A stretch of DNA of 64,000 nucleotides, taken from Branchiostoma floridae. Its lineage: Eukaryota; Chordata; Leptocardii; Amphioxiformes; Branchiostomatidae. Position 1 is the stretch's first letter, and each line of letters opens with the position of its first letter. The DNA is taken from assembly GCF_000003815.2 (NCBI RefSeq), contig NC_049984.1:3668504-3732503 (forward strand), in the 5' to 3' direction. Made by a program: the position numbers and the translations under genes. This document shows, piece after piece, positions 15,281 through 64,000 of the stretch. The notes under the pieces are model-generated. The model made no database searches, had not been told where the DNA came from, and saw nothing but the letters and a program-made list of their open reading frames with translations.

Positions 15281-16150
15281 TTCCAGGTAACCCCTTTATT
15301 CACAGAAATCTGTAACACTAATTTCAACATGTTGTTCAGATGTTTTGTCAGGATGGTCCAGAGTCATCTTGCTCTTCTTTTTTCTCCTCCTCCTCCTTTC
15401 TTTCTTTTGAGTCAATTCCAGGTAACCCCATTATTCACAGAAATCTGTGACACTAATTTGTACTTGTTGTTTTGTCAGGATGGTCCAGAGTCATCTTGCT
15501 CTTCTTTTTTCTCTTTGTTCTCCTCTTTCTCCTCCTCTGTTTTCTTCTCTTTGTGCTTCCCTTTGGAACTGTAGGCATCAGACAATGTCTCTGCTTTTTG
15601 AATAACTAATGAACAAGACTTCCAGGTAACCTCTTTATTCACAGAAATCTGTAACACTAATTTGTAGTTGTTGTTCAGATGTTTTGTCAGGATGGTCCAG
15701 AGTCATCTTGCTCTTCTTTTTTCTCCTCTTTTTTCTCCTCCCTCTCTTCTGTTTTCTTCTCTTTGTGTTTCCCTTTAAAGCTGTAGGCATTGCTGCCATT
15801 AGACAATGTCTCTGCTTTTTGAACAACTAAATGAAGAAGACTTCCAGGTAACCTCTTTATTCACAGAAATCTGTAACACTAATTTTTACTTGTTGTTTAG
15901 ATGCTTTGTCAGGATGGCCAGGAGTCATCTTCCTCTTCTTTTTTCTCCTGAAGCAGTTCCTCCTTTTTTTTCTTTTTGAGTCAATTCCAGGTAACCCCTT
16001 TATTCACAGAATCTGTAACACTAATCTGTAGTTGCTGAGATGTTTTGTCAGGATTGTCCAGAGTCATCTTGCTCTTCCTTTTTCTCTTCCTTTTTCTCCT
16101 CCTCCTTCTCTTCTGTTTTCTTCTCTTTGTGCTTCCCTTTAAAACTGTAG
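15281..16150 (-). repeat. Five tandem copies of the phosphatase 3'-terminal cassette
   Basis: The landmark ttccaggtaac recurs at 15281, 15416, 15620, 15842 and 15985. Read on the minus strand, units carry a Lys/Glu-rich tail (KGKHKEKK..., EEQDDSG), a stop, and in most copies an AATAAA signal (tttattcac on the plus strand). The unit next to the real last exon is used by the gene. The others lie downstream of the stop; the two best start at a gcctacag sequence matching the exon's own GACGCCTACAG. Confidence 0.85.
15999..16004 (-). terminator. Candidate poly(A) signal of the phosphatase gene
   Basis: AATAAA on the minus strand, about 44 nt beyond the TGA at 16048-16050. Similar hexamers recur in the downstream copies of the cassette, so several alternative 3' ends are possible. 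Confidence 0.5.
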
Positions 16151-19100
16151 GCGTCGTGAGGGAAGGGGTAAAGGTCATCCTCGCAGTACGGGTTCTTCAC
16201 GTGAGCCTCCACGTACGTCTGCAGCAGCTGGCCGATCGCTTCCGCGTCGCTCTGGAACGGGGAGTCGGGGTAGGTGTGCCTCAGCCACGCCCTCTCCTGC
16301 GGAAGGATATATACAGGGTTAGTCTTCCTGCTGATGTTAGGGGAGTCGCTCTTTTTAAATGTCCGATAGAATTTATGAGATTAGGGGTGGGTACTGGTAC
16401 AGAAAATTCAGGTCCAGGTCCGGTTCAGATCCAGAGGATCAGACCCGGGTCTGGACCTGAACCTGATTCAGTATTCAAAACAATGCTCCATTTAGCTACA
16501 AAGAAATATGTTTTGTGGAGTATTCTACTCCCACTGGCATTTTAAAATCTTACAAGGCTAACTGCCTATGTCTACTGGTTGTAAACCTTGGTAGAAATGA
16601 CTATATACTCAACTCTACTCTCAAATAAGCAAAAACGGTTTTGTATATATACTGGTACACCGTATTGGTACTAGTACCCACCCCTATGTGAGATGTATAC
16701 ATGAAACTGTGCATACATCAGCACCTGGTCACACTGCAAAGGAAAGGCGATGTTACATCTACATCAGGACTGTCTCCAGGACCCGTCCTTCCGTCGTGGG
16801 ACAGAAAATAATTCCATGGTGACCCAATCCGTCCTAAAAGTTTAAACTCCATGACAAAAACTGATGAAACAACAGATTTAAGAACAAAAATCAACAATAT
16901 CGGCTCCTAGACTAAACAATTAGTTTCATTTGTATATTTATATGTTTCGAAATGTATGTCTATTTATTTTCTTTGTGATATGCTTTAAATTTATTTCCTT
17001 GTATGTAAATACTGGGCCCTATTGAAAGCCAGTTTCTCTAAAATGAATAGGCCACCCAGGCGTTTGAAAATAAACAAACAAAAACAAAGACAGAAAGAAA
17101 TTAAAGCTGCAGACAGCCCTGATTTACATGACTGACTATTGTATCTCTCTATGTCAGCTGATCTCTCCTAATTTGTCAAGCTCTGTAGTATCTCTGCACT
17201 GATTTGTCATCAGATCGTGCCTCCTTTGTAGACGTCTTCAAAGCGCTGACGTTTATTTTTGCCGGGAGCGCTGATTTGCCATATTCAATATGAGCAGTTT
17301 CTCTGATGCCTGGGCCCCTGGGGTGATCATTGATTATGTGCCTTATTGCAAAAAATCATGAATTTGTCTGGGAAATGAGTCTAATTAGATCAGTGCTGTC
17401 GCTATAAGCCCATATTACAAGCTTGGTGAATGGCAGAAAAACCGTCCAACAGACGTCTTACTTTTTTATAATTAGGCCACACCAATTTAATTTCTTGGTT
17501 CACGGATTTGCTCGCCCCTATTTTTTGAAAAAAATAAAAATAAAAATAAAAATTATCACTCGGCAAATTTTCACCATTAATGAAACCATTCACCAACTTT
17601 CTGGTGTAGCAAATTGGCCTTTATATTATAAGCTCCTTAAAGTGTGGGTACAGGTGCTGTTACTGTATAATAATAGTGTTTTTGTACTTTTTTCAAGCTG
17701 AAAACTTTTTTTCTTTATGTTTTGGATTAGCCGTTACCTTTACCTCAACCATTTTACAATTTTTATTTTTATTTTTATTTCGCCCTCTCGCTCCATATTT
17801 TTAATGAAAAAATCCGTGAACCAAGAAATTAAATTGGTGTGGCCTTAGAAGAAAGTTTTCTCCTAGTAGCTGGTCTTAGAGCAAGATTTCTCTCTGAAAA
17901 TGTCATCTGCCTCTTAATGTTTAAGTAGTAAAGCTGATAATTCTGGTCAACAGGGAAACCCTGCTTGTTAAGTTTCAAACATCCATTATTATGGCCCATA
18001 GTATTAAAAGTGCAAATTAAGGAACCACAAGGTCTAAGTTCCTCTTTTGTAACAGTGATACGATGTTGCTGCTCTTTCACAATCAAGTCTTCTCGACCAT
18101 TGAAATGGCCTAGAGGCATGAAGGCATGAAGGCTGCAGACACAAAAGTACCTTTCGGCTGGAAGAAAAATGACTTTTGTCCACCCGCATGCTTCTCCATT
18201 GCAATCATTGAACTAATCAATCATTCATCAAGCTTGCCACACTCTTAGATAAGGGACAGATCTGGCAAATACTGCACCACAACAAATATGCAACTTTTTG
18301 CATCCTACAAAATGGTATAGTTACTGCATTATACCATGGGCATGGCAATCTGTACAGTTGAACTGTCAATACAGAACTGAAAAAGTTTAACCGTCCAAGT
18401 GTCAGTACAGGCCAATTATAAAGCTGCAGCTCAAACTGGCCATGACATTTGGCGGGTTAAAATGCATACGTCTATCATTATTTGTGTGTAAGCAGGCAGG
18501 CGACAGCATGCCGCGTTCTGTACAGTGTCCTTGCACAGGACTCAGCATACATTGTACATGTGCAACATTGTTTCTAATTCAAGGATACTACAGTCAAACC
18601 TGATTAATTAGGCATCAACCTGGCACAGACAACCACTTCCACAAGCCACATCTTAAAACAGTCATGTCCATTTTAACATACTGTAAATGCATTTAAGTTT
18701 GCAGGGGTTCAATGTTGCGTTTGAGAAGGAGTTATTATAAGCGCTCGGACACTACAGAAAATGCGAACATAAAACTCCAGCAAACATTTAAATGCATTTA
18801 TAGTAGTTAAGCCCACCCTGTCCTGAGCAACAAACCGTCCTCAGCAACCATTTTCCTCAGTCCATTAAGTGGTTACTGAATCTAAGTATGACTGATTACA
18901 ATATGGAGGGCAAAGCATTTCTTTTGTAGCAAAATGTCATAGAATTGCATCCAGCCTTTGTCATGACCCTTACAACTATAATATAATAACAACCAACAAT
19001 ATGCCAAAAAGCAGCTACTCAAGCATCTGGATATGATTTTGGAAACATTAATTACTACGGCCTGTAATGTTCAAAGTGCAAACCAGGGAACCACAAGGTC

Positions 19101-25100: not shown

Positions 25101-28100
25101 AGACATTTTTATTGGGCTTTCTGTTTTTTTAGGATTTCCAAGTAGTAGAAAGCCCAATAAAAATGCCTGAACAGACATCCCAAACAAGCTGGAGCCTAAC
25201 CTCTGCTTGGAGACAAAAGTAAGCCAAGAGGGAACTGAAACACAGGCACACACAACCAGCCATCATCAGCCATCTAGGACCTGCGGATGACCACAAGTAA
25301 CCAGGATTCAGGAAATGGAATTTTTAAGGAGATCACTGTTCTGGAGCTATAAAAGTCTAGCACACGGTGAATAGATGAAATTTTATAGTTCATGTACAAA
25401 CGTATATAAATTTTGGAGGTGAAACACTCAGTCACACACAACCAGTCTTCATCATCCAGTTCTAGAAGATGCAGCAAAGAGGCAAAGAGCAAAGAGGTCA
25501 AAGTACAATCTCTCTGTTTAGAATTACTTTTTCAACTTAAAGTCACTAGTCCACAGTGTATGTTTTACAGCAGCTATAAAAGGTGAGGAATGTAAAACAT
25601 CATGTTATAGCTTCATACATAACCTATTTTGGAGAATATAGCACCATGTAAACTTCAGGTAGACATGTTCATCAGCATTGTAATTTGGGGAAATTGTCTT
25701 ACAATAGACAAATGTTGTTTCAAACTGCTGTCTTGTTACCTGGACATTTACTGTTTTCTATCTGGAATTATGTTGTAGAAGAGAGTGTAAAGAAAGAAAA
25801 CTGGCAAGGGATTTACATTCCAAAATTACTTATAGCAGCATATAAACTTATAACCATAAGCATGGAGGCTAGACCATATATTCACTGACTGAAATCATGT
25901 AACAGTTACAAAATCAGTGTGGATGGATCCTGGTTCAATGAACACACAGTCAAGGATAAGCTGCAAATGAATTGTATTATTGATGATTTGATTTCTTCCT
26001 GCTGTCATACTTATATGAAACCAAATATAATCTACTGTAACATATGTCAGATTAGGGAAAGGGTTTGCTCGAATACAACTTCACCCAAACAATAGATATC
26101 ATGGCAAAAATGGCCCCAACATAGCATAATACAAACAACAGTAAGCCATGGAAATCGAAGCTAATCTGCGATTCTACTTCAGAATCTAATCTACACAATA
26201 CTAGTCTAAGACAAAAACATGCCCTGGGCATAGCGTCCAGGAAAGCGGCATAAGGTCTAGTAGCAAGATATATTATATATATATGATATAATACAAAACT
26301 GTAAATCAATATACAGTCAAACCTGGATTCAGCAACTACTTACATGTAAGGGACTGAGGAAAAATGGTTACTGAGGACATGTGGCTGTTCAGGGCAGGGT
26401 TAGGATAAACATAGTACCGGTAATTGTAAAAGGATAATTACTACTAGTAGGTGAATTCTTTTATGCAACCAATTTATACATACTTTTCCAAACTGATTGT
26501 ATAAAAGAATTCTCCTATATTATATATTCTACCAACCTGATCATGATAAAATTAATTTCAAAGCATGTACAATTGTAAAAAATCTGCTTGAGACTGGAGG
26601 TCATTGCCTGTACCTGGTGGTTGCCCTACCAGATATGACCGTTACGGTAATAAATGTTATTTTCTGAATAACTGGCCACACTAATTTGGTTCACAGATTA
26701 AAAAAATAAAATGAAAATATGTTTAACTGGAAAAACATCATGAAAACAAAGCCCGAGGACCAAGTTTATGCATAGTGCACTAAATTTTATGAAGTGAATA
26801 CTGTCATATTCAAGTTTTCCTCCCTACCCTCTAGTTTTATGAGGTCCGCTTCCTATATTTTTATTTTTCAAAAACAGTGCACCAAGAAATCAACTTGGTG
26901 TGGCCTAATCAATGAAAGTTACCCACCTCGGATAACCTCATTGCATCAAACTCTTGTAGTTGTCGTTGGAAGCCGAAGTTTGGATTGGCCACGGCGCGGG
27001 CCTGCCGTATCGCCTTCAGTGTGTCCCGCCAGCCGAGATTCGTCACTGTCATCACGTACGCTGCTGCTACGGTTACGCTTCTGGACACACCCGCCAGACT
27101 GAAAGGAAGAGACGAGACATACTCTCATTAAAACAAGGAAGGCTAGGTATATATCATTTTATATCAGACCAAAACATAGCTGTACTCTCTCTCTCTCAAA
27201 AGATAAGAAATGAAGCTTTAACAAATAGCAAATAGAATATTTTACATTTGGACGGTTTCACGAGTTGGTGATAGTTACGCCATTTATTTTCTAATCTAAC
27301 AATTGACAAATATTATTGACAGAAAAGCATTGGCTAACAAATAACTAGTGATAAGAAAGAACCAACTGCAATTTTGTAAAAAAAAAATCTTTTAGTGCCA
27401 AACTTGCAGGTGAGCATCTTTATTTGATTAGTCTTAACCAAAAACAATATCAAAGTCTGACTCTATTACACATAATTCAATTAAACTTGTAGCACCATTG
27501 AATGGAAACTTACCAGTGTATTAAACAGGCACCACCACCAAGTCTGCAGAGGAAATTTAAAAAAAAAAATATTGAAACATACATGTGTTGGACTCAGTGA
27601 GGGACAACATTGTGGGACAATGTTCAATGAGTCGGCATACACTCTAACATAGAGAATCAGCACTCCTGAGGGAAATTTACTTCCCCTGGGCCATGTATAG
27701 ACACACCCTCTTTAATCCAAACTAATTTCAATCAACTCAAAGAAGAAATGAGAGCAGCCTTTCATAAAATATCATACACAAGCAAATATGACCAGGGCTG
27801 TCTCCAGCTTTAAGTTTTTTCTGTCTCGCTCATTGCTTAGGAGCCCAATGGATGTTAATTTTCGTTGTTAAATCTGTCATTTCAAGCTTACAAATTAAAT
27901 ACTTTTTCATCAAGTTCATGTCAAGAAGTTCAGAGTTTGGATGGATAGGGTAAAATCCATGTTCCTCCCAACAAGAATATTTCCACCTCGGGCGGATGGA
28001 AGGATCCTGGAGACGGTCCTGAACCAGACATTGTTTGATTCTAAGCAATTCCATCATCTTCCCAATCAACCTGGTGTCCCTAAATTGCCGACTTGTGATG

Positions 28101-31100
28101 GCAGACACCAGGGCTGTCTCAAGCTTTAATTTTTTCATCATACTCACTGTTTGAAAGCCCATATGATTAACTTTGAATTTGTTGTTGAATATACCATGAT
28201 TTTAAGCTTGGAAATACATATTTGATGTCATCAAGCTCAGATTTAGGGACTGATGGGATGAATTTTTTGTCTGTCCAGACAACCATATTTCCATCCCTAA
28301 ACAGAGGGATGTGTCCTAGAGACAGTCTGGCAGATACAAATCCAAATGTAAGCCACTAGGATCTTCATTAGTGCAATCAACAAATGAGTTGGGGATCTTT
28401 TTAGGAAAAACATAATATTCTACAAAGCCTTGTACTAGGCCTTCAAAAAGCATCATTAGAAATTGTGTAAGTTTGCTGGTTCTAAACATCCTTACCATTC
28501 AATTCAGAGAAAAAAAAACATGAATTTAAAGGTTGCTTTTTGAATTTGTTCAGCAACTTGACTAAACCATACACTTCATACACAGTCATATTATGAACTT
28601 ATGTGTGACTTTAAATATTCGTATGCCTAAATACAATGTACACAATACATTTTACTATTACGTACCTTGACTCATGAATAAATTTGATGGATTTTCTGAA
28701 GTGCTGTGTTCTGAAAAATATTATTTCAGACATGTAAATCTAGTACAACATTGATGTAACATGCATTGGCATAATACCGGTCATAAGCCTTATACCGGTC
28801 GATTAAAAATAGTGGAACTTAAAGAGATCTACACATGCAACAATAGTTATTTCTGAGGTATGCACACTTCAGACATCTAGGTGTCCAATACATCATTTAC
28901 AAAGCATCGATAACAATGCATTCGAAGACAACAAGGCCAAAAGTTTTCAGGTCATTTTCGGGGCAGGCGAGCTCGTCGTGGGACAAACACACTGTCACGT
29001 TCATCGCCAGATTTGTAGATAATAATCAAATGTGCTCACGGCACAAGACGAGCATGATTCAACAGCAATCTTGAATTTCTTTTGGTGACCTACAACTCGT
29101 GTAAAAGTGTGAGGAACCGTTGCATTATCGCCCGGATCTACGGCTGAATGGGTCAAATTGAACGTACGCCGCCATTTTTAATGCTACGGCCAGCAGTAAA
29201 GTTTTACGTCATAGCGGTTGTGACGGACCAAAATTAAATGAAAATTCTTGTCAGTATACGCCCATTTTCTCATGACTTTTTGTATGCTCATGCAGATTTT
29301 TGTTTTGTGCAACTACTAACAGGAAAGAAAGGAACAACAGAGGATGTATAAAGGTACATAGCGGCAGTTAACTGTGCCGTGTTTCGTTCGGCTGGTATAG
29401 TGCACCCCCTTCCAACCACGCGCCTGTTCTCCGTGCAATTCCGCGGTGTGTTCCAATTACGATATTATGTTTTTAGCAGGACCAGAGAGACAAAATAATT
29501 TACACAGAAGAAGTGGCAAAGGTAAGCTGTAACAGCAACATGTAACTGGAGAAAATGATGCGTTGATCATTTGCCAAATTAGCATTGCTTGAGAAATTGC
29601 AGTAAACCGACCGGTATTATGCCAATGGATGTTAACTTGGGTGATCTGCATTTCAAGATAAAAGACTATTCTATTTCTTTCAATACTGTCACATTGAAGT
29701 TAACAGTGTAAATAATAAGAAAATTTAGCACTAATAACCTATAGTACATAATTAGGCACTCCAACCTTCAGTATACTGAAGACAACAATGGCAATGAACA
29801 ATTGTTACAGTGACTGTATTTCATTTTTACATAAAATGTATTCTTGGGAACATCATCCATCCTCTAGAGATGATACATATGGTGATGAGAGGAGACTAGT
29901 TGCCATTTCGGCATCATCACAATAAAGCTTAATGCATCTTAATGACAAAGCTTACAAGTAATATAACACAATGTTGTGTTACATTAGCCACTATATCTAG
30001 TGAGTGATATTTATCTCCATTATACTGGCAATGGTTCCATAATGGTGGGTATAATCAATACACAACACAGCCCAAAATATCGACTGCCCCTCCTTGTGTG
30101 ACATATGCCCTACTTTCCACCGGCCAAGCACCTTAGGCCTGGGAAAAATTGTTGTGTTTCCTGTTTCAGTCCTGAAAAAATTAGGGTCGGTAGGTATAGG
30201 GATTATCTTTTTTTTCTTGTAATTTTTTTTAGGCTGGCCAGACATATTACAATGCAGTTGAACAAAGTAAATTGAAAAGTATGAGGACACTTATCTTTCA
30301 ATGTCAAATTTTAATGTTGTTCATAATTATTGATACATTTATTCTTCATTAGATAGGACAAGCAGTGATTTTACTTGAATAGGAAGCAGGCTGAATAAAA
30401 ATTTGGTAGCCATATGACTCCACTGCCCATCCCAAATAAAGTCTAGGGTTGGCAGGTTTTTCTAGGTATGGAAACAGGAAACACAAGATTTTTTCCCTAG
30501 GCCTTACAAGTACTTACAGGTTTTGATGTGGAGAGTCGGAGGCTGGGATACATAAATAATTCATGTCCTGCAAAGAGAGAGAAAATACTGTAATGCAGAA
30601 ACTTTCACGGTGGTTTAATGTTTGCGGCTTCTGTGGTGGCCACTACCGCAAAGTTAAAACCACCGCGAACATTTTAATATGACAGTGAGATACTTTAGTG
30701 GAATTTAAAACCTCAGCGAAAAGTCCTTTTTCCCGCTACCGCAAAATTAAATCCCCGCGAACTTAAATGCATTTACAGTGCATGTAGCATGTCCGACGAT
30801 CAATACGCGGCGACCTCCTGGTTTCTGTGAGTTGTGTGCCAAGGTCAAACACGTAATTGTAAATAACCAAAACAGCTGCTGTTCATCAGTAACAGGTCTA
30901 ACGGTAGGGGTACATGTCAAAGTACAGTGATATTAATGATGGAAATGAGTTTACCTGATTTTACTCTATTGCAATGAATATGCTGAGAGTCAGTATTGAG
31001 TTGACTGTTCTGATACTGGGTATGTTCAGTGTCAACATGGAAGGGTCTAAAATGTAAATTAGAGAGATTCTGTTTACTGTTCATTGGCAGTAGCTACAGA

Positions 31101-34100
31101 CATTTCACAGTCACACAGAAGACTGGAATGGCATCGTTTAATCATTATTCTTAATCATTATCTATTATGATTATTATCACTCAGTTGTATACCATTCTGT
31201 ACTTCAGGTTCCCTCAGCACATCAATACAATACAATTTCTCAGGAGAAGCCAACACTATGGCAACAGGATTGAAATTCTTTTTGTTAAGTAAAGTCATAT
31301 ACTGTGTTTTGACAAGTTAAGACATAAAGCAGTGCTTGAAATACTTTTTTTTCAGCCAGGTTGCCATGGCAGCAAACTGAGTCAAAAGCCAGGTTGTGCC
31401 ATCAACATTTCAAGTTATTACTTTTTTTTATTACTTATCCATTATCTTTTCTTCAGTTACATACAAGTACTTATGTTTTATCTTACTAAGACTCTTAGCA
31501 AGAAATAAATACAAAAGCTTATGCATGTAGGTGGGGAGAAAGTGGTGCAAAATTTTAGATTGCGCAGTGAGCAACCTGAGTTTAGAATCAAGTTGCGACA
31601 AGCAAAATGTGGTTGCGTTACTTTGCAAGAGGGTATTTTGAGTTCTGCGTAAAACTATAGACATTGTTGAAGTGTAATGATGTCTAGACCACTTCATGCA
31701 TTATTCATACACATGATGTTAACATGGGCAGAAATGTCTGAGTCATGGTCAAACTTTCAGGAGCCCTGCCAAGGCCATGCATATCTGATCACAATTAAAG
31801 CTAAGGCCAAGTGCAGAAACTCTCAATGTGATATTCAGAGGAACTATGATTTTCATCAAACTTGAAACATCTGACAATGATTCGCTGCTACCTGACATCA
31901 TCTGACAACTTCCGGATTAGTGCAGCGAGTCATTCATCTGACGAAGGTTGGAGTCTTCGGCCGGAAATTTATGGTTTCTTTTGTGTTGGAACAAAGTTTG
32001 AACCTTTTCACAACGGAATTTACCAACACAGATGAGCTTTCAGATCTGACAATGCAGTCCAATTGTTTGATGGCAATCTGAGAATTCAAAACATTTAAAG
32101 GGAAATAAACTGGATAACAAAACCTCCGAATTGTATAATGCAAGTAGAGTAAACCTTAGAACTGAAAAATCATATAACTGAATACATCCTCTTTATCTTT
32201 AAATTCTTTCTTCCAAGATTTCTTTCAGTCTTTTCTCTCTTTTTAAAAATATATATCTATAGGCAAAACACATATTATTACTTAAATGTATTACACTGTG
32301 TATTGAAGAAAAGTTTGTAGAAACTAGTAAATAAGCTAGACTGAATACTGTGGCACAAGACTTAAATCAACTTTTAAATTTGAGTTAACTTCTGGAAAAC
32401 TCCCAGCATCAAATTAAACAATGAGGTTGAAGCAGTGTTTATATTACCTCGTGTAGTTTCTTGGCGTTGTCATGGATAGCCAGAATGTGTGTGATTCCGT
32501 GTGTGGTCAGCTGCTCACGGTCTTTGGAATCTGTAGATGATAACACACATTGAAATAATTTCATTGGCTTATTTGACTTCCAACAGTTTCATGTATATCG
32601 CTTTTTTTTTATAAATTCAACGCCTGAAGTTGGTGGAGTATCCCAGGTCAGGGTGACAAGGAGTGTAACACCAGTTCACCTTTATCCGTAGGGTAACCTT
32701 TATCCGTTCTTTTTAAGAACAATGTATTTAGGGATACCATGTCGACAGATGATGGTTTCCAACTGCAATATTGTGAAAATAGTACATTTTGAAATTGCTT
32801 TCCATTGACGTGATATCCCTGGATACCCTGTTTAGCTACACAACGGATATAGGTTACCCTGCGGATAAAGGTGAACTAATGTTTCCAGTACAAACCATTT
32901 TTTTCTTGTTGGACTGGTAAACTGGCAGTTTTATACATTTTGGCGCTAACCAGTTCAAGAAAATAACAAGCAAAATGAGCCATTTTTTTTAGTATCGCCC
33001 ATTTACAACTTCAAAGGTCCAGTTTCAGGTCCAGACCATATCCTCTGGACCTGAACCTTACCTGTACTAGTACCTGAATTTTCTGTACCGGTACCCACCC
33101 CTACTGTAGTACATCAGACTGTTCAATAGAGAGAGACCTCTCATTGACCCAGGGTTATTTACAAAAGTGCTGAGTTCCGTAACAGCGGACTTCTGGTGCA
33201 ATCTCTGATGTTGGCAGTTTCCCAAGGCCCACATTATCCAGACTAAAAGCATGGAGACACGCACAGTTAGCAGACAGTCATCTCCATCTTTACTGAGCTT
33301 ACTCAGAGTTCTGCCCTCGTTAAGGCAATACCAATATGATCCGTGGTTTCTCTTCAGGAAATTATGTTGATGATAATTTCTAAACACATGTACAGTAGAA
33401 ACCAGTTAATTGCGCAACGGATAAAATTTTTGCACACTTCTGCTGATTGCACGAAATCCAAAAATCCTGTGGTCCAGCTTAATAACTTTGCTGTGTTGCA
33501 CTATTCGGATAATTGCACAGAACGCACTGGCAATTGGGGTATGCAATTCAGCAGCTTCTACTGTATAATCGATGAAAGAGTCCAGCTAACACTGTAGTTA
33601 TATATTCATCCCTTCTAACTGTAAGTGCTAAAATTGAGGAAGGTTACCTACCTCTGAAATTGCCAATGTACAGTCCAGGAAGGACCTGTCGATTAAAAGA
33701 AAATTGAATTTCATTAAAATAATCAGAAATCAAGTCAAACTACAGGTTTACATCTTAATATAAATAAGTATATCATGATGGATGTTTCTATCATTACTAT
33801 ATGTCAATCTAAGATATTGCACAGGCTAATAAATATATTTCTAGCTAGTCATAAGCATTCATTCATTCATCCATCTATTCATTCATTCATTTATCCATCC
33901 ATTCATTCGTTCATTCATTCATTCATTCATTCATTTGTTCGTTCTTTCGTTCATTCATTCATCAATTCATCCATCCATCAGTATGATCTGCATGAATGTT
34001 CTATATTTAAATTTTTGACGAATAATGAATTTTTATTGCAAATATGAGGTACGCGGAAGTTCAAACACAGTTTTTTTTTTCAAACACACAGATGCAGGAA

Positions 34101-37100: not shown

Positions 37101-40100
37101 ACTGCCGTAATCTGCCGATGACGAATGTTCTGCTACAAGCACTCTCATCACACACAATCAGAAGATACAGAACCATCTCATCGTACTGCCGTAATCTGCA
37201 GATGACGAATGTTCTGCTACAAACACTCTCATCACACACAATCAGAAAATACAGAACCATCTCATCGTACTGCCGTAATCTGCAGATGACAAATGTTCTG
37301 CTATAGACACTCTCATCACACACAATCAGAAGATACAAAATCATCTCATCGTCGTACTGCTGTAATCTGCAGATGACGAATGTTCTGCTACAAACACTCT
37401 CATCACACACAATCAGAAGATACAGAAATCATCTCATCATACTGCTGTAATCTGCAGATGACAAATGTTCTGCTACAGACACTCTCATCACACACAATCA
37501 GAAGATACAAAATCATCTCATGGTACTGCCGTAATCTGCAGATGACAAATGTTCTGCTACAGACACTCTCATCACACACAATCAGAAGGTACAGGATCAT
37601 CTCATCGTACTGCCGTAATCTGCAGATGACGAATGTTCTGCTAAAGACACTCTCATCACACACAATCAGAAGATACAGGATCATCTCATCGTACTGCCGT
37701 AATCTGCAGATGATGAATGTTCTGCTATAGATACTCTCATCACACACAATCAGAAGATACAGAACCATCTCATCGTACTGCCATAATCTGCCGATGACGA
37801 ATGTTCTGCTATAGACACTCTCATCACGCACAATCAGAAGATACAGAATCATCTCATCAAGACAGCCAGTCTCCATGAACTTCTGCAGATAGGGGTAATG
37901 AAGTAGGGATGCTCCATTTGTTGTGTGTGTGGGATGGCATTCTACTTTGGGATGTTTCATGTAACAATCTTACAGGGTTTGTGTTTCTATAATCGGTACA
38001 TACAGTGTGTACAGGAAAAAGGCCTTACATTGTTCTTTGTAGTTTAATGTGTAACTTGTAGTGCAGAAAAAGTAGTTTTCTAGGGGGTTAGATAGCCAAG
38101 CTGCACAATGGTAGGTAAGAAAAACTTGAAAGTTCATCTGTATTTAAATTGGTAGAAGTCAAGTGTAATTCAACTGTAAATATCAAAAATCGGACTCACC
38201 CAAATTTTCGACTGAACAGCACCAGTCTTATAACCTTCAAACTTCACTTAAGTCAATAAATGTCACTAAGCAACTCATATAGACTTAAATGTATGCACAA
38301 GTGGGAACTAAAGTACATGTAGTGGTAAGTCGGGCAAGGAAATCGAACTGAATCCTTTTCAGCACCAAGGACAGGTTATATAACAACTGCTAAAAGAGTG
38401 TTTCAAGTCACTGTAGACAATAGATTACTGATGTCAATGAAGATTAGACATTTAGGTAATAAGATATGCTAAAAAGCAGTTACTCAACCAACTGGATATG
38501 ATTTTGGAAATGGTCAAATGTTTCAAACAACATCCGAGTGTCACTGACGAAAAACAACGGATGTTGTTTGAAATATCTGACTGTTTCCAGAATCATATCC
38601 AGTTGATTGAATAACTGCTTTTTGGCATGATAGATACCTCACTGCCAAAAAGAACTACAAGGCATACTAAAAAGGGAATCCAAGCTCGTTTGATTATTAA
38701 TAAGATTTCAATGTCTGTTTCAGAGTATAAAAACAGATTTTCAAAATGAGATTTTCAAAGATAGAAAAAGTTGTACAAATACTAACAACTTGTAAACAAA
38801 TGACCAGAGTTATTCAGACATAAGTCATGACTAGCTAATTTTTATTTTGGGGATTAAAAAGATGCAATTGGAATCCAGATGTTTAAGATATGAAACAACT
38901 CCTAGAAAATAGATGAAAATACTATCATATCACAAGCTGTGCATGATAGTAAGTTATGGCACCAAAGGAGAGAAAGAGCTACAGTACACTTTTTATCCGA
39001 TCTGTTTTGAGATATGATCAAATGCTATAGTATACAGTTGTGAACAATAAATAAAACACAGCATTGACAGATCCGTGCGACCGCCCCCCTCAAACAACAT
39101 GCACTCTGTCTGCCCTGTCAGAAGGTTTGATTTACAAGACAGGAAACCATGTGTACCTAACGGATTACATTTCCTTTGTATGTGATGCAAACAGGCTTGT
39201 GCAGTTGTGGTATATTGGGCTAGTTTCCCACATGGGGTTATTTATAAATTATATGCCAAGCAGGTTCTTTCAAGTGGTAGGTCATTGACCCCAGCCTTTT
39301 AAATGTAGGAACAAGTACATCCTGGACCAGTTTGGTGGCACTGCAAAAGGAAGGGGTATATTTTGTTTGGTAGCAGGTCCGAGTAGAATATGTTCACGGC
39401 GGGAAGTGTCAAAAGTGCTGGTACAAAGCCGTGGGAACAGGATTTCTGGACGTGAAAATATTTGTTTATGACAAAGGCATTAAAGTTTTCATGTCTTCAT
39501 ATCATTTTGTGACGCCTGGAAATTAAAAATGAATGTTGTGGCAGTAATTTCCCATAAATCTTACATATTGTTTAAATACTTAATCTAAAATTCACTTTTA
39601 TTACTTTTTGTGCCTTCACTATTTTTCAACATTAACTTTTTTTTATAAAAGTATTAAAACTAAAAATTAAAAGTCTACAACTTACAAGGTCCCAAATGAC
39701 CCAATATATCTTCCCACTCACTGACTGGATGGAAAAAAACAGACTGAAGAAGAAGAACTACATATCTTCAGAAATCTATTCCAGAAAGGCTAACATCATA
39801 TTCATTGGCATCCTGTCCTATTTCAGTCCAAATCTTAATACCGAACGGCTTGAATCAACTTCATACCTGAAAGGATAACAAATCCATGCCGAGAAAAATT
39901 GGATCACAAATATTTTCATTACGAGATTCCGCCTCTGCAAAATCCCTTTTCCAAATTAGGGAGCGGATAGGAGACAGACTGATGAAGCCGGGCGGTCTCC
40001 TCCCGGTGTTTAATGACAATCTTGCCATCTTAATGAATCCTGAGATATTGGGGGCCGGCCCGTCTTTCAGGAGGTAATTTGGTTACTGATTCATCAGGAG

Positions 40101-43100: not shown

Positions 43101-43851
43101 ACTATGCCATGATCTGCCACGAAACAACAGTGCCATAGAAAGATTTTAAGATGTTATGTTTTGATAACTATACAATAAATTATCCATAGTTTAACTTTAG
43201 TTTAATACTTTGTTGTTTCGTAGTACTAGTATTCTGTGTCATGTTGCAAGCACTTTCTATCATCAGCTCTTCTGCATTCAGAGTTCAAGTCGCGAACTTC
43301 GAGGCATTTTTGTCTAAATATTTTGAAAGATGATATATCGGAGGTGACTGGCTACCTTGCACTAAATGTCTGCATTGGGGGTACTGCATTATCAATTACA
43401 AAATAACTATTGGCTCTTTCTTATACACTGTTGCAAGAGTCGTAACGCATCACACAAAATTAAGACACGTCTATAATAATATCAATAAACTGCAATGACA
43501 CCAACCCTTTGCAGTTTTGTTAACTTAACTGTCTAATTATGATTGAAGTAAAAAAACAAGCATACATCATATATGATATAACATACAATTCATTAAAAGC
43601 ATGAAAAAGAGTACAGTATCAAACTAACAGATCTTAATTCACACACACTGTTGATACTCATTCAACAAGGCCATCTGTGATCATTGCAAACTTGACCCTC
43701 AATATTATGTACCTTGGTCAAACACACATAATTTGGCACACACACACACACATACACAAGATACAGTACACACACACAAGTTGCTCTGACAGTAACTAAA
43801 GAAATGTTTACGTAAAGACGTTTGTCTTACCTTGTTCATACCATTTCCCAT
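16048..43851 (-). CDS. DUSP22/DUSP15-like: Dual-specificity phosphatase, DUSP15/DUSP22 family
   Basis: Eight exons on the minus strand: 43831-43851, 33652-33685, 32448-32530, 30518-30567, 28666-28710, 27514-27543, 26927-27098, 16048-16296. All have AG/GT boundaries and compatible phases and give 227 aa. The start MGNGMNK is the N-myristoylation-type start I recall for human DUSP22. The general acid Asp57 (PASDSP) and the signature HCLAGVSRS with Cys88 and Arg94 are at the DUSP22 positions. Members dephosphorylate phospho-Tyr/Ser/Thr proteins and act in JNK signalling or at membranes. The last exon aligns through the conserved WL..Y..SPF region, then adds a charged tail (Lys/Glu runs ending QDDSGQS). 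Intron 1 is about 10 kb. The gene sits head to head with TTLL9, as DUSP15 does in human, so it is probably the pre-duplication orthologue of both vertebrate genes. Confidence 0.95.
16382..16686. mobile_element. hAT-type MITE with 8-bp target duplication
   Basis: Ends TAGGGGTGGG / CCCACCCCTA with flanks tatgagat and tgtgagat (7 of 8 matching). The interior has ggtccaggtccgg motifs shared with 36578-36987 and a partial copy ending at 33103. It lies just upstream of the last phosphatase exon. Confidence 0.85.
17474..17845. mobile_element. Inverted-repeat element, GGCCACACCAATTTAA family
   Basis: About 370 bp with long terminal inverted repeats (ggccacaccaatttaatttc and its complement) next to A/T-rich (aaataaaa)n tracts. 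A near full-length copy lies in opposite orientation at 50188-50556, and shorter relatives at 26673-26907 and 54478-54710. It is in intron 7 of the phosphatase gene. Confidence 0.85.
18680..18804. mobile_element. MITE with ACTGTAAATGC ends
   Basis: Ends actgtaaatgcatttaa and its near complement; a short copy of the family seen at 9691. Confidence 0.7.
19001..19210. repeat. Inverted-repeat element (ttttggaaac family)
   Basis: Left arm atgccaaaaagcagctactc and right arm gagtaactgctttttgacat are inverted copies. The interior contains a second copy of a sequence found at about 17993-18052 (aaccacaaggtctaagttcc). Confidence 0.75.
19284..20232 (-). CDS. Ser/Lys/Arg-rich terminal exon, possible alternative 3' exon of the phosphatase gene
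   Basis: A 949-nt frame on the minus strand opens at an acceptor-like ctcccaaag|A and ends with TAG at 19284-19286 (about 315 aa). It is rich in Ser, Lys and Arg. It has two related blocks (SPRQKRSATVSGGIGE and SPRKKRSATFSGVVGD), other SPR/SPL-K motifs and an acidic segment near the end, and it looks disordered. No ATG lies near its start, so it should be an internal or last exon. It lies in intron 7 of the phosphatase gene on the same strand. The main exon-7 donor is in phase 0 and would not fit. A weaker donor 10 nt earlier (ATGAG|gttatc, exon end 26937) gives phase 2 and joins in frame to RDLSLIVK. It may instead belong to an unrelated gene. The frame itself is solid; the assignment is inference. 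Confidence 0.55.
21214..21576. mobile_element. hAT-like inverted-repeat element
   Basis: Ends CAGGGTTGTAGCCAGC and GCTGGCTACAACCCTG enclose 363 bp with no coding capacity. Flanks taatacaa / gcttacaa are a poor 8-bp duplication (5 of 8), so the copy is old. Confidence 0.7.
22683..22790. repeat. Dispersed repeat fragment (gggcaagtgaaagt family)
   Basis: Contains gggcaagtgaaagt and gatcgggcaagc, also found at 63797-63895 and related to the element at 24606-24943. Only a fragment; no clear ends. Confidence 0.55.
24606..24943. mobile_element. Inverted-repeat element with CAGGGTTGGACAAGT ends
   Basis: cagggttggacaagt at 24606 and acttgtccaaccctg ending at 24943 are inverted repeats. Internal copies of tttgtccgaaatta occur twice. 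The target duplication is unclear. Confidence 0.7.
25026..25207. repeat. Hairpin element
   Basis: gaggttaggctttaacttgt near 25067 and the inverted acaagctggagcctaacctc near 25184 form arms, with an inner arm ttttattgggctttct / agaaagcccaataaaa. A single-arm relative occurs at about 51822-51842. Confidence 0.7.
26673..26907. mobile_element. Short copy of the GGCCACACCAATTTAA element
   Basis: Ends ggccacactaatttgg and the complement ending ggtgtggcct. It lies only 20 bp downstream of the donor of phosphatase exon 7. Confidence 0.7.
27791..28345. repeat. Two direct copies of a dispersed repeat
   Basis: accagggctgtctccagctt (27791) and accagggctgtctcaagctt (28108) each begin about 240 bp of similar sequence. 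The two are diverged by indels. They sit between phosphatase exons 5 and 6. Confidence 0.6.
28759..29632. mobile_element. Segment of about 870 bp flanked by 24-bp inverted repeats
   Basis: acatgcattggcataatacc plus ggtc at 28759 is matched in inverse orientation, 23 of 24 bases, at 29609-29632. The interior around 28950-29450 is unusually CpG-rich for this window and carries gccgccattttt. No reading frame is evident. It is in intron 4 of the phosphatase gene. Confidence 0.55.
30587..30779. mobile_element. MITE with ACTGTAAATGC ends, beside phosphatase exon 4
   Basis: Ends actgtaatgcag and gcatttacagt; internal accgcgaac and cgcaaaattaaatcccc motifs. It begins 20 bp outside the acceptor of exon 30518-30567, so it occupies the region where the polypyrimidine tract and branch point would be sought. 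Confidence 0.8.
33393..33563. mobile_element. TA-flanked MITE (CAGTAGAAGCC family)
   Basis: Ends cagtagaaacc and gcttctactg with TA on both sides; about 171 bp, more diverged than the copy at 12971. Confidence 0.75.
33857..33985. repeat. (CATT)n / (CATC)n simple repeat
   Basis: Tetranucleotide tract of cattcatt with cattcatc interruptions. The reading frames across it are artefacts. Confidence 0.95.
34828..37855 (-). repeat. 84-bp minisatellite, about 31 copies, open in the minus-strand frame
   Basis: Units of 84 bp (actgccgtaatctgcagatg ... atctcatcgt) fill 34828-36577 and 36988-37855, split by a hAT-type insertion. As 84 is a multiple of three, one minus-strand frame stays open for 534 codons (34799-36403), giving 28-residue repeats such as YDEMILYLLIVCDESV. 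A 7-nt excess near 36350 and a 1-nt excess near 37428 break the frame elsewhere. Plus-strand frames are also long but are cut by TAG in units with ctatag. It lies in the first intron of the phosphatase gene on the sense strand. I see no start context or splice link, so I call it a repeat, not a gene. Confidence 0.95.
36578..36987. mobile_element. hAT-type MITE inserted in the 84-bp array
   Basis: Ends TAGGGGTGG / CCACCCCTA with a perfect 8-bp target duplication, aatcagaa at 36570-36577 and 36988-36995. The interior has ggtccggtccgg and ggtccaggttcagg motifs. The duplicated target is part of the minisatellite unit, so the array existed before insertion. Confidence 0.93.
38465..38628. repeat. 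Hairpin element (ttttggaaac family)
   Basis: atgctaaaaagcagttactc and the inverse ending ctttttggcat form arms of about 70 bp. A short loop contains gtgtcactgacgaaa. Confidence 0.85.
38640..42230. other. First-intron sequence of the phosphatase gene, no gene
   Basis: AT-rich intron DNA without a recognisable exon. Two stretches, about 39890-40080 and 40530-40750, are more GC-rich than their surroundings; the second holds several nuclear-receptor-like half-sites. Confidence 0.5.
40564..40741. promoter_or_regulatory. Cluster of nuclear-receptor-like half-sites
   Basis: TGAAGGTCA at 40564-40572, TCAAGGTCA at 40615-40623 and the palindromic TGACCCGGGGTCA at 40729-40741 lie within 180 bp in the first intron. 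TCAAGGTCA is the extended half-site used by NR5A/ERR-type receptors. Motif presence alone is weak evidence. Confidence 0.2.
42237..42660. repeat. Long inverted repeat of about 424 bp with a nested hairpin
   Basis: aatattatgctttgattcaa at 42237 is mirrored by ttgaagcaaagcataatatt ending at 42660. Inner matching segments include gaaggctagacatccaggta / tacctggatgtctagccttc, atctagaggatgac / gtcatcctctagat, and at the core agcctggtatccagc / gctggataccaggct. The last is shared with a separate hairpin at 45450-45530. Confidence 0.85.
42858..42957 (-). mobile_element. tRNA-like SINE fragment
   Basis: On the minus strand, A-box-like tggcttagtgg and B-box-like ggttcgagccc occur at tRNA-Leu-like spacing. 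A second, partial copy lies at about 43085-43130. Acceptor-stem pairing is poor, so a functional tRNA is unlikely. Confidence 0.45.
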
Positions 43852-44751
43852 GTCTCCTTTCCTCTTCCGTTCGTTTGTGTGTCACAATGCAGTGGCCACG
43901 CCCCCCAAATTACCCAACAATTAACACTGCCCGTCCCTATCCGGTGCTCTTGTCGCCTAGCTCGCTCTGAACCACCGTCTGTCGTCCGTTCACGGTCCGT
44001 AATACAATCCCCAAACACTCTGATCAGCCACTAATTTGCCCCGAAAGTGTAGCCGCTGGGAGAAAATCTCGCCAAACTAATTTGGTCCCACCTGAGTGAT
44101 TGATTGACAAGTAAAAGGGACGATGTTATAAACGTTGTCATGCCGCCATCAATCCACTCGGCGGGAAAAAAACTCAATCTTTGCGCGGCTCAGCCGAGCT
44201 CTCGCCTGAAAATACGCATCCTGGCAGTCAGAGGCCGCTCACACGGACTTATAAAGGCTGGTTTCTGGCACGACGTAGGAAATTCTTTGCCCGAATCGGG
44301 ACAGGGTGGCGCCGGGCTGGTTCTGGGCAAAACTGGGCAGCTTCTGTCTCATAGGGGTCACTTCCGGGTCACGGGAGGGCTTCCGGTTAGAAGGTCTTTG
44401 AGCGGTTACCAGTACACTGAAAATGTACTTTGAACGTACATTTATACCGATACAGACTGAATTATGAGGATTTGATGATTTTAGATAGTTTATCACTTAT
44501 CCGATTGCATTGCATATAGTTTAAGGAAACCAAAAATGAAGTTTTGAAAATCATTGTATCTTTCAGAAAACTTTGGAACTCCATACATAGCCTACGCTGA
44601 GAGGGTGTTGGTATGGACGCCAGTTGTTGGTGACACAAAAAAACGACTGTCAACATTGAATATTTTCTCGTCTTCTGCTCTCTTGTAGGGTCGAATTGAA
44701 GTAAAGAAGCCTGTAAGAATTCACTAGGTGATAGTTTTGAAACATCCAGCC
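43852..44751. promoter_or_regulatory. Divergent promoter interval between the phosphatase gene and TTLL9
   Basis: 900 bp separate the two start codons, which point away from each other. The interval is CpG-richer than the flanking introns. It contains a GC-box-like ccacgcccccc near 43896, two ETS-type CTTCCGG motifs (44361 and 44380) and a TATAAA at 44250-44255. The exact transcription starts and 5' UTRs cannot be read from the sequence. The long open frames here are not supported as genes. Confidence 0.65.
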
Positions 44752-54454
<9,703 letters not shown>

Positions 54455-56910: not shown

Positions 56911-58712
56911 TTAAATGTTTGATTTCTCATCTTCTTTGTTTATATTGGAATTTCCAGGATGGTAGGTTTTCATGTGCCACCTGAGGGAGTTATACTGCCG
57001 TCCGCTGTAGTTACACAGACTACAGTTGAAAGGGTTGTCACCCGTGTGTATCCTCATGTGAACCCTCAGGTGTTCAGATCTGCGGAACATCTTACCGCAA
57101 TACGAACACTGGTGGCTGCGCTCGTCCGTGTGCACTTTGTAATGTGAAGTCATCGTCGACTTGACACCAAACGATTTCTTACAACCCTCATAAGGGCAGT
57201 GGAATCGATTTCTGTCATGGACACTAAGAACATGCATTTCCAAACCACGTTTCTCTCTAAAAGAAGACTTGCAGTTTTCCACATCGCATTTGTACGGTCT
57301 TGCCTCGCTAAGTTTAAGCTTGTGCATCTTCATATTCCAGTTGGTGAAGAACTTTCCGCAATGATCACACAAAAACAACTTGTTCCCCTTCAGGTCCAGT
57401 TTGTCTCTGCTTGGCAGGTGTGTCATCAGGTGCTTGTTGAGTCTTTGTCTTGTGTGAAACTTGTCTCCACAGTATTCACATGTCTCTGGATGGGCCTTGA
57501 GCTTATGTTTGAAATATGACACTTTGCTTGTGAACTTTTCCTTACACTTGCATACCCAGGATGTCTTCTTTTTCCACTTGTTTCCGTTTTGTTTCCTTTC
57601 CAGTTGAAGCCGGCATTCTGTCTGTTCTAAACGATCACTGTTGCTCTTGCGCCTCTTGTTTTTGTTTTTAGAAGATTCTCGCTCACTTTCTTCAAAGTCA
57701 TCTTCTAATTGATCTTCCCCCTCCTTTGCCTCAGTAAACTGAGATGTAGTGTTGTAACAGTTATCAATATTCGTGTCTTGTCCACTTTCCATCTCATCTT
57801 GAATGCCAACTGTGCAACAACCCGACAAGGATGGTGTTTTTGTGCTATAACAATCATCAAGTTTCATCTCTTCTTCGTCTCCCTTCTCAGCATCAGTACC
57901 AATTGGATCACAACTTAGAAGTTGGGCAGTGCTGTTGCAGCAATTAACAAGACTTCTCTCTAGCTCGTCTACTTCCTCCTCCTTGATATCATTTGCGATA
58001 GTACCACAGCTCGGTTGGGATGTTGTGTTGATGTCAACGGTGCCGATCCTTTTCTTTTGGTCATCTTCTTCCTTAACAGTCTGTCCTGTGTCAGGTATCC
58101 TGATTTGTCCAGTTGCGTCTTTGGCCATTGACTTTTTGATAAGCTAAAAGGGTGAACAATTAAAAAAGTTAATTTTGATCTTGAATACTAGTAACATAAT
58201 GCAACTACATGTAAATGTCACAACCAAACTAGATATGACGATATAACTATTATTCTTGAATATAAAATTTAATAAAAATACACACACAAATATACTAGAT
58301 GAATTTATTGGATCTCAGTGTTGCTATTGAATACACAAACTTATGTATAGTGTTTCAACATTATGAATATGATAAATAATACTGATGAGGATGATATAGA
58401 ACCTACATGTATATAACTTCCTTGTCTTAACTTTTAACTCGTTGGGACAAGGAGGTTGGTTGGAAGTGAAACGCATTTCCGTTGCAAGACTTCAAGGTTT
58501 TACAGGAATAAACTATTCATTTATTCATTCCCACTAACCTGTGTCTCAGTCTGGTAAGCGTTGGTATCCAACTTGTCATTTCTTGTTGTTGGTGTGGATG
58601 CGCGGTCAACCTTGCCGGCCAGTATCTTCCTTCTCAGCTGCAGTGCCTGCCTTGCTATCCTTGCCTGTTTGGACTTCTTTCTTCTCACTCGTCTCCTCTT
58701 TTTGTCCCCCAT
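56911..58712 (-). CDS. C2H2 zinc-finger protein, copy A (7 finger-like units)
   Basis: Two exons on the minus strand, 58539-58712 (ATG at 58712) and 56911-58143 (TAA), join in phase 0 to 468 aa. Exon 1 encodes a very basic start (KKRRRVRRKK), a likely nuclear localisation or nucleic-acid-binding segment. The next ~190 residues are acidic and Ser/Thr-rich, with sumoylation-type IKEE. Finger-like units span about residues 254-453. Units 2 and 4-7 are full C2H2. Unit 1 has the unusual CKC spacing. Unit 3 (LFLCDHCGKFF) lacks the second His. The block TDERSHQCSYCGKMFRRSEHL is shared with copy B. It is probably a nuclear DNA- or RNA-binding protein; the target is unknown. An upstream non-coding exon cannot be excluded. 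Confidence 0.92.
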
Positions 58713-60752
58713 GCCGATGGACACTCAAGTATGATTTTCAATGAAAGAAGCAGGCGACACACAGCCAGAGAAGCCAGGAAAATGCGCACGTAGTCAAGAA
58801 ATAGAGCAGGAGAACCGATCAGTCCTAGGAACAACTGGGCTTTCCCTCCCTCCAAAACTATGGCATAATTTGCTGCCAAAAATTGACCTCATATTACTTT
58901 GACTGATACATTTTCTAGTCCCTCGATGCCCCCCGACATGCGTGAAAACTAGATCCAGCTACCTCATCTCCCCACAGCCCTGGAGACTGGTAACTAAGGT
59001 GCCTGACAAGTAAAGATAGATGCAGAAACGTCCAGTCACTAGAGCTAAATTTTCTTCCCGCCACTGTCACAGCTGTCAGCCGCAGTTCCAACATGACCTT
59101 TGACCTAAATGATCTTCCTGGTTCAATGTGTCTAGAAAAGTATGTATTTGTGAGATAAATAAGTAGGTAAAAAAGGTAGGTACAAGGAGGTAAAAAATCT
59201 TTGACCACAAAATTACTTTACTGATGAGAATGTCGACGAAAGCTCCGATAACAGGAGTTATTGACTGATTGCTTGTAGTTTCTCCTAACTGTGGACTATA
59301 CCAAATGTATCCAAAGGTAAAGATGGAAATAATACAGTTAATCATAGTGTTTTGTGCATTTACTTTTTTTATATCATGTGTATGCATATGACTATTTTTA
59401 TATAGTTAAACATTTGGTTGTAGTTTGTAAGCTTTGACACACATATCAAATCATGCTTCAACCCCCTTTAATGTTGGTATCAACTAAATTATCATTAATC
59501 TCCAAGCAGATCCTACGGTGACATAAGAATAGATAGTGTCAAAGCTGGCTAAGGAGGATAGCCGGCCAACGGGAGTCAAACGGGCACCACAGCATACACA
59601 ATCCTAGGCCGGCTTCACTACTCTGTCAGCCTTTGATACTATCTAAGGAACCCAGGACATCTTTCATTAATCTCTGAGCAGATCCTATGGTAGCATATAA
59701 GAATATTATGCTACTGTAGGATCTGCTTGGAGATTAATGAAAGATGTAAGTATAATTTTCTTATGCTACCGTAGCATCTGCTTGGAGATAAATGAATGAT
59801 GCCCTGGGTTTGCTGGATCTTTTCATTATACTGGCCATAAAATTCTATTGGAAACATATATCTAGAGCCTCAACCTCTCTAATTTTATTGTTATGTGGTG
59901 CATGGAGTGGCACTATGCTTTCTAAGTTGAGGAACTTAACTTTCAACTTGAGAAGGAGAAAAAGATATTCATTCATTCCTTTTTTTTAATATGGGTGATA
60001 TCAAGGAGCTTGCTTCATCTTACGAAGGATAGAGGCAGAAATGCCCAAGTACTTGACAATGGAGCTTTCATCATTGGTGATATCAGTGAAAATGCCCTGA
60101 CCTCTACAAGGAAATAAAATGAGAAACTACACACTGCATACATGTTGTACATCTGGTTAGTTTTTATTTGTCTGAGATATAGATATAGGAACTTGTGGTA
60201 ACAACAAGATTATAGGTGTGCAAAAAGTACAAAGGATTAAATTGAAACCCCAAAACAACTAAATATATAAAAGTACAAAGTAACGTTAGACAGAATGACA
60301 TAGTTATAGGTATATTGAATAACATGCACTTCGTGTGCATTATATAATTTCTACCAGAGAAAACTGCTTTCCCCATTAACACATTACACCAATGAGAAAA
60401 GTTTTAGTATTCAAATGGACTTTCAAAAACTTTGATGAGGGTATATTTCAGTTATTCCAATGGAAAACCTGCTTTACTTATTTCCACCATCAGCTTACTA
60501 AAGAGCAAATCGACTTTTCTAGTATCTACACAGATGTGTAGTAGTTTTCCCTAAATGGGAATTGCAAAGTCGTAAGATAAACTGTTGGTCTACCTGAAAG
60601 AATATCATAAACTTTTTCAACAAAATGGCACCTTTTGTTACAAAGAGGTAGCCCTTGCTATAGCTAATCATCATCACCACTTCACATAAAATATTCTCAT
60701 GATTCTTTTAAATCTGCAACGTCAACTTCCAGTTCTTGTCGATTAATGATCT
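58713..60752. other. Intergenic between the two zinc-finger genes
   Basis: No gene recognised. Copy A's promoter should lie just above 58712. A palindromic repeat cluster fills 59485-59810, and the 3' region of copy B lies at the upper end. Confidence 0.55.
59485..59810. repeat. Cluster of inverted and direct copies of a 40-bp motif
   Basis: The motif ttaatctccaagcagatcct and variants occur four times. 59658-59746 is a near-perfect hairpin (catctttcattaatctctga / inverse). Between the first two copies lies a tcaaagctggctaaggag segment related to 9850-9930. Confidence 0.8.
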
Positions 60753-61744: not shown

Positions 61745-61867
61745 TGAAACAATGTTAATGAGTTATAATAAATTCTTAGGCAGACATAGTACAACTTCTT
61801 TTAAGTAACAGCATCTCTTGAAGTGAGATTAATGAGAGCATACTTGGCTTAGGGCTGTAAAAATATT

Positions 61868-62051
61868 ACTGTAAATGCATTTCAATTCGCCGGGATTTAA
61901 TTTCATGGTGGTTTTAAGTTCCCTGTAGCACCACATGCTGTAGTCTCTTACTGCCATGGAAAAATGTTTGCGGTGGTTCTAAGTTTGCAGTAAATTTGCA
62001 ATGCAAAAACCACGAACATAAATCCACCGGGAAAATTTCTGCATTTACAGT
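61868..62051. mobile_element. MITE with ACTGTAAATGC ends
   Basis: Ends actgtaaatgcattt and gcatttacagt; interior ccaccgggaaaat and ggtggttttaag motifs. It lies in the intron of zinc-finger copy B. Confidence 0.85.
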
Positions 62052-62266
62052 ACCTCTTTAGGTGCATTGTCCTGACTAAAGCGCCTAGTGTACATGTATA
62101 TGTATCTGAACAAGCATAGTACTACCAATAGTGGACATTATTTTTCTATGTAAAAAAGATAGGTAAATCTCATCCCAAACATGAAATTTAGGACTTCAAG
62201 TGTTTATGTCGAATAATATGTAGATGAATAAAAATAATGCGAATACACAAATACAAATAAATGTAC

Positions 62267-63698: not shown

Positions 63699-64000
63699 CT
63701 GGAAGAGTGAACAATGTTTAAAAGTCAATTTTTCATCTTGAATAACATAATGGAATCAAATGTGACTATGGATGAATAAGACATGAACTAATGCAGGGTT
63801 GGGCAAGTCCTCTTGTCCCATTGCCCAGGGCAAGTGAAAGTGCTGATCGGGCAAGCCCATGTTCTACCCCAATGTTGCCCAATGGGGCAGGTAAGATTTT
63901 CTACTTGTTACTTCTCACAGTCAAGGCATCAAACATTGGTCAACCCAGAGAAATTGAGCCAATGATACAGGGAATTCCATTACTGTATGTGAAAAAAAAT
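63699..64000. other. Intron or upstream DNA of copy B, repeat fragment
   Basis: Contains ttgggcaagtcctcttgtcc and gggcaagtgaaagtgctgat, the dispersed repeat seen at 22683 and 24606. No exon is seen before the window ends. Confidence 0.55.

Follow-up and report, generated by a model that had tools for sequence, protein, structure and literature searches.

The locus considered here raises the question of how a phosphatase gene that resembles DUSP22 comes to sit at the address of DUSP15, that is, head to head with TTLL9. It lies within a stretch of 64,000 nucleotides from the lancelet Branchiostoma floridae (contig NC_049984.1; C6:3668504-3732503; hereafter the window), in which a DUSP15/22-type phosphatase gene on the minus strand and a TTLL9-type gene on the plus strand are arranged divergently. 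Our essential contention is that the locus most plausibly shows the DUSP15 and DUSP22 regions of vertebrates as they both were before duplication, which would explain a DUSP22-like gene at a DUSP15 address.

Structure of the gene pair

An earlier note on this DNA had placed the two genes on opposite strands with their starts 900 bp apart, and the positions of the first exons confirm it: 900 bp (43852-44751) separate the ATG of the DUSP15/22 gene (43849-43851, minus) from that of the putative TTLL9 gene (44752-44754, plus). The same note held both genes to be completely readable, which stands for DUSP15/22, from ATG to stop, and fails for TTLL9, which lacks one or more 5' exons. The phosphatase gene has eight exons, spliced at GT/AG boundaries, which join into a protein of 170 residues starting MGNGMNK:

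43831..43851, minus strand: DUSP15/22 exon 1, encoding MGNGMNK, an N-myristoylation-type start, with donor GTAAGA
33652..33685, minus strand: DUSP15/22 exon 2
32448..32530, minus strand: DUSP15/22 exon 3
30518..30567, minus strand: DUSP15/22 exon 4
28666..28710, minus strand: DUSP15/22 exon 5
27514..27543, minus strand: DUSP15/22 exon 6, the end of which falls within the catalytic HC
26927..27098, minus strand: DUSP15/22 exon 7, carrying the LAGVSRS signature, the strongest match when the gene was searched against its own genome
23285..23362, minus strand: DUSP15/22 exon 8 with the stop, encoding LRKWLRQKYPHSPFSEDEEAVKELL and ending there
16048..16296, minus strand: candidate alternative last exon of DUSP15/22, beginning ERAWLRHTYPDSPF, in the same phase as exon 8

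The model matches the Pfam DSPc domain (E=1.3e-30), and the catalytic motif HCLAGVSRS, which spans the splice between exons 6 and 7, fits the HCxAGxSRS pattern by which the DUSP15/DUSP22 subfamily is recognised.

The TTLL9 gene, on the plus strand, is arranged as follows:

44752..44772, plus strand: putative TTLL9 exon 1, encoding MSRTQKQ; the exon linking it to 47005 was not found
47005..47088, plus strand: next coding exon of TTLL9 found
47480..54454, plus strand: thirteen further coding exons of TTLL9, from 47480-47591 to 54375-54454, with the stop at 54452-54454

The ATG at 44752 is assigned to TTLL9, as a putative start, because of its position and because human TTLL9 presumably also begins MSR. 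The fourteen exons from 47005 to 54454 encode 417 residues, and this later model aligns with TTLL9 at 67% identity over 414 aa and with TTLL1 at 45% over 379, the human references being provisional. Pfam and PDB comparisons used an earlier model of 406 residues, one small exon short; it matches the TTL domain (E=9.1e-79), and in the PDB it comes closest to TTLL6 (155.9 bits) among 23 matched sequences that do not include TTLL9. A filtered search for the missing exon gave four in-frame candidates, none of them convincing, and a 100-N assembly gap lies inside the first intron at 45878-45977. By eye, a partial copy of the TTLL9 exon at 52625-52758 is seen just upstream, at 52510-52578 on the plus strand, where it runs into a stop.

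Several other observations concern the phosphatase gene. The candidate alternative last exon encodes 82 residues, with an end rich in lysine and glutamate; it is alike with exon 8 at 14/25 residues and appears as a weak match in the whole-assembly protein search (E=1.62, 54% identity). Together with exon 8 it suggests two C-terminal forms of DUSP15/22 arising by exon duplication. Between these two candidate last exons, at 19284-20303 on the minus strand, is a serine- and lysine-rich open reading frame (ORF) of 339 aa that matches nothing in Pfam at E 0.01. The intron between exons 4 and 5 contains a CpG-rich stretch at 28711-29522 (observed/expected ratio, o/e, up to 1.17). Inspection by eye shows an ATG on the plus strand at 29467 and a donor, GTAAGC, at 29522 within it, so that the stretch could be a nested antisense gene or an internal promoter.

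The arrangement in vertebrates

One deletion, at 30,461,617 on human chromosome 20, is assigned to TTLL9 intron 1 and also to the DUSP15 promoter, and a variant in the FOXS1 promoter is listed at 30,434,096 (PMC4927100); so far as it was searched, that paper does not define the promoter. If DUSP15 lies between these two variants, its 5' end faces TTLL9. A list of pig genes gives, in order, MYLK2, FOXS1, DUSP15, TTLL9, PDRG1 and XKR7 (PMC10734178), and DUSP15, FOXS1, MYLK2, TTLL9 and TPX2 are named together elsewhere (PMC5545731, PMC2937017). The human genes had been described in the earlier note as adjacent and divergent, and the double-labelled variant and the pig list are consistent with this, short of a direct reading of the map. 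As far as these sources go, then, human 20q11 is like the lancelet locus in that the two genes are adjacent and in an order consistent with divergence, and unlike it in that a DUSP15 promoter variant falls within TTLL9 intron 1, whereas the lancelet start codons are 900 bp apart. No report of the lancelet pair was found in the literature on TTLL9 with amphioxus or on TTLL9 with DUSP15, a search that did not extend to the supplementary lists of PMC6292497.

One phosphatase gene, probably for two

The phosphatase is closest to DUSP22 (1wrm, 238.2 bits), followed by DUSP15 (1yz4, 183.7), with the best other chain among the best 60 of 73 matches at 93.7 (3lj8). Its MGNGM start, with glycine at position 2 and a predicted myristoylation, is that of DUSP22 1wrm. 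Relationships were judged by three-way site counts rather than by a rooted tree. At the 69 sites that differ between human DUSP15 and DUSP22, the lancelet protein agrees with DUSP22 at 26, with DUSP15 at 13 and with neither at 30; its identities are 98/161 with DUSP22 and 84/157 with DUSP15, and the two human proteins share 88/157. These counts and identities fit one founder gene and a DUSP15 that has changed faster.

Whole-assembly searches covered 513 Mb in 431 contigs. The protein search found one DUSP15/22 gene, in that of 29 matches all those above 50% identity belong to this locus, whereas elsewhere identity does not exceed 46% (over 70 aa); the result holds for one assembly and for a search that scored only its best candidates. 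The earlier suggestion that the lancelet gene is the source of the DUSP15 locus is too narrow. Because the gene is the only one of its kind found in the assembly, nearer to DUSP22 in sequence and 41 kb from a cluster of IRF loci, it is best read as a co-orthologue of both DUSP15 and DUSP22.

Linkage to IRF and Fox loci

To the right of the pair, at a distance of 56-60 kb, are ORFs that matched the IRF and IRF-3 domains of Pfam. Across the assembly, 19 matches were merged by hand into 10 IRF loci, six of them single (on C3, C8, C12, C13, C16 and C19) and the others grouped beside the pair:

C6:3,753,543-3,792,037 (window +85040 to +123534): four tandem IRF loci within 38.5 kb, the fourth with one exon only

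The nearest is 41.2 kb from the DUSP15/22 ATG and 30.6 kb from the end of TTLL9, a proximity expected by chance at ~0.001 on an after-the-fact estimate that takes seven independent loci and counts the C6 group as one. Its DNA-binding domain scores 123.5 bits against IRF4 and 123.1 against IRF10, a fusion chain having ranked first only by summing two domains, and for the IRF domain at 100.6 kb the best single chain is IRF4 (as ICSAT, 45.2).

In vertebrates, DUSP22-IRF4-EXOC2-Fox on chromosome 6 and DUSP15-IRF10-FOXS1-MLCK2-TPX2 on chromosome 20 have been described as duplicated regions (Wotton & Shimeld 2006, PMC1634998), and DUSP15 is listed at the IRF-10 locus in two further papers (PMC2885996, PMC5281639). 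The state of human IRF10 is reported differently: it is placed on chromosome 20 in PMC1634998, and according to PMC2885996 human and mouse both lack it, a segment of 210 residues being left. Taken with our IRF scan, these published linkages mean that the lancelet locus carries TTLL9 as the DUSP15 locus does, and IRFs as both loci do. Markers of the paralogon are thus present, with TTLL9 at 900 bp and the IRF cluster at 41 kb; collinearity with the vertebrate loci, which a paralogon does not require, is absent.

Forkhead matches numbered 42, merged by hand into 33 Fox loci, and seven of these are on C6, a contig accounting for 28.1 of the 513 Mb. Four stand at C6:8002371-8506054, 4.3 Mb from the pair, and form a candidate lancelet Fox cluster. 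The C6 loci are compatible with the lancelet Fox cluster cited by Wotton & Shimeld. The likeness to the vertebrate Fox-cluster paralogon lies in the DUSP22-IRF4 and DUSP15-IRF10 duplicates on the one side and a single lancelet DUSP15/22 gene near IRFs, with Fox loci on the contig, on the other (PMC1634998). There are differences too: the IRF stands beside the DUSP gene in that paralogon and on the TTLL9 side in lancelet, the available text of that paper does not name TTLL9, and the lancelet evidence it offers is the Fox cluster and not a DUSP-IRF link. Other neighbours from human 20q11 did not appear among the Pfam matches of 10 ORFs from 264 kb, 8 ORFs of the window and the two gene models, a set that does not amount to a systematic search; the matches it gave were IRF, PKD channel, LRR, zinc-finger and C-type lectin, and the remaining sequences had none.

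The interval between the start codons

43852..44751, no strand: divergent interval of 900 bp, GC 0.47, CpG o/e 0.91
44361..44386, no strand: two ETS-like CTTCCGG sites 19 bp apart, weak after correction for 15 patterns

Composition was measured over 43852-44752, and the means of the window are GC 0.39 and CpG o/e 0.50. Fifteen motif patterns were listed over 43752-44852, and four of these were compared with 2000 shuffles. The ETS pattern CCGGAAG was seen twice (P=0.006), TATAAA three times (P=0.0045) and the ETS core CCGGAA twice (P=0.11); since neither CCGGAAG nor TATAAA stands up once all 15 patterns are corrected for, we take the two as weak hints. An excess of ciliary X-boxes was considered and rejected, with two loose matches seen, 1.41 expected and P=0.41.

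For a bidirectional pair the divergent 5' ends should lie within ~1 kb, and the spacing of the ATGs, rather than of mapped transcription starts, puts DUSP15/22 and TTLL9 within this distance. A promoter shared by the two is plausible. Bidirectional promoters take in 25% of the neighbouring genes of lancelet, and 372 of them are reported as putatively ancestral, most having broken up in vertebrates (Marletaz et al. 2018, PMC6292497). Bidirectional promoters being common in lancelet, the arrangement is ordinary in kind; if the human reading is right, however, the pair is one of the minority of ancestral pairs to last in both lineages. It resembles the ancestral chordate promoters of that study, as they are described there, in having protein-coding genes 5' to 5' at a short distance in lancelet and, apparently, in a vertebrate, and differs in being known from its sequence alone.

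Origin of the locus

We propose, with reasonable confidence, that the window preserves, in its unduplicated chordate form, a locus copied later by vertebrate whole-genome duplication, and that the pair was kept by a probable shared promoter region. In the ancestral locus, DUSP15/22 and the ciliary tubulin polyglutamylase TTLL9 would have diverged from a CpG-rich interval resembling a promoter, with IRFs nearby. After duplication, one copy would have kept DUSP15-TTLL9 with IRF10 (a gene that mouse is reported to lack, and that in human is reported lacking or broken), and the other would have retained DUSP22-IRF4 while losing TTLL9. That one promoter region served both genes is the probable reason why the pair survived. 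A single inversion of the intact DUSP-TTLL9 pair would turn one IRF order into the other and leave the head-to-head arrangement untouched.

Several points weigh against this proposal. CpG o/e values equal to or above that of the interval occur in 4.2% of 595 overlapping 900-bp stretches. The 5' end of TTLL9 is incomplete: exon 1 closes in phase 0, which is not the phase required by the exon at 47005, so that the two do not join in frame and a 5' exon must be missing. The identities of 67% and 45% were measured against provisional human TTLL sequences. The DNA-binding domain of the nearest IRF scores almost as well against IRF2 (119.8 bits) as against IRF4, the IAD of the IRF at 100.6 kb favours IRF5 (60.5) over IRF4 (53.7), and the IRF domain at 111.6 kb favours IRF2 (42.4 vs 38.6), and these mixed scores for IRF4, IRF10, IRF2 and IRF5 leave the subclass of the C6 loci unsettled. 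Gene order differs, with the IRFs on the TTLL9 side in lancelet and beside DUSP15 or DUSP22 in the vertebrate loci described. Finally, no DUSP15-IRF10 linkage was found in teleosts, the DUSP15 region being hardly recognisable there (PMC1634998, PMC2885996).

We also need to explain what the two genes might have in common. The study of Rfx2 targets drawn on below was, we take it, made in Xenopus. Ttll9 is among those targets (PMC3889689), TTLL9 belongs to a human ciliated-cell signature (PMC3338421), and Dusp15/VHY is myristoylated and was believed to be testis-restricted before work on oligodendrocytes (PMC3394735). Shared activity of both genes in flagellated cells is a fair hypothesis. A much bolder extension would make the interval a single promoter of ancestral origin, coupling a myristoylated phosphatase with a flagellar tubulin polyglutamylase since before vertebrates; the founder would have acted in ciliated or sperm cells, DUSP15 would have kept the testis expression that DUSP22 lost with TTLL9, and the intact pair would have been inverted as one block with respect to the IRFs. 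We consider this extension rather unlikely and put it forward tentatively.

The rival that survives best shares the ancestry of our proposal and differs on mechanism: the pair would be a bystander, inherited intact through the slow rearrangement of lancelet and human chromosomes and for no regulatory reason, with two separate promoters within the 900 bp. An interval serving a ciliary gene shows no X-box excess, bidirectional neighbours are so frequent in lancelet, and so often broken up in vertebrates (PMC6292497), that the arrangement proves little, and the mammalian roles differ, Dusp15 acting in oligodendrocytes (PMC3394735) and TTLL9 in cilia (PMC3889689, PMC3338421). Set against this are the CpG-richness of the interval, the presumed survival of the pair as an intact unit despite its different placement with respect to the IRFs, and the former belief that Dusp15 is restricted to testis, a tissue rich in flagellated cells (PMC3394735). 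We regard this rival as a real possibility, if not one that we favour.

It is improbable, in our view, that the lancelet gene is simply the orthologue of DUSP22, with DUSP15 older than the split of lancelets and vertebrates and its lancelet copy lost. The bit scores (238 against 184) and the shared states (26/69 against 13/69) both incline towards DUSP22, but the gene adjoins TTLL9, which is the neighbour of DUSP15, and the identity between human DUSP15 and DUSP22 (88/157) falls between those of the lancelet protein with DUSP22 and with DUSP15; work on vertebrates puts both in one duplicated paralogon (PMC1634998). That DUSP15/22 and TTLL9 became neighbours separately in lancelets and vertebrates can be practically dismissed, since two named genes would hardly meet head to head twice in a genome of this size, and since the separate link to IRFs favours common descent.

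If the locus is indeed the unduplicated one, it can serve as the single-copy reference for an immune-signalling region that was duplicated (DUSP22-IRF4 and DUSP15-IRF10). It would then also allow one to test which neighbour was kept by each duplicate and, specifically, whether the present expression of DUSP15 and DUSP22 goes back to an ancient promoter shared with TTLL9.

Other features of the window

A long tandem satellite occupies 34800-37860, with about 400 bp of unrelated sequence inside it near 36580-36990, as judged by eye. The satellite gives rise to an open frame of 534 aa, which is not a gene. Past TTLL9, at 56914-63755 on the minus strand, related C2H2 zinc-finger open frames are arranged in tandem.

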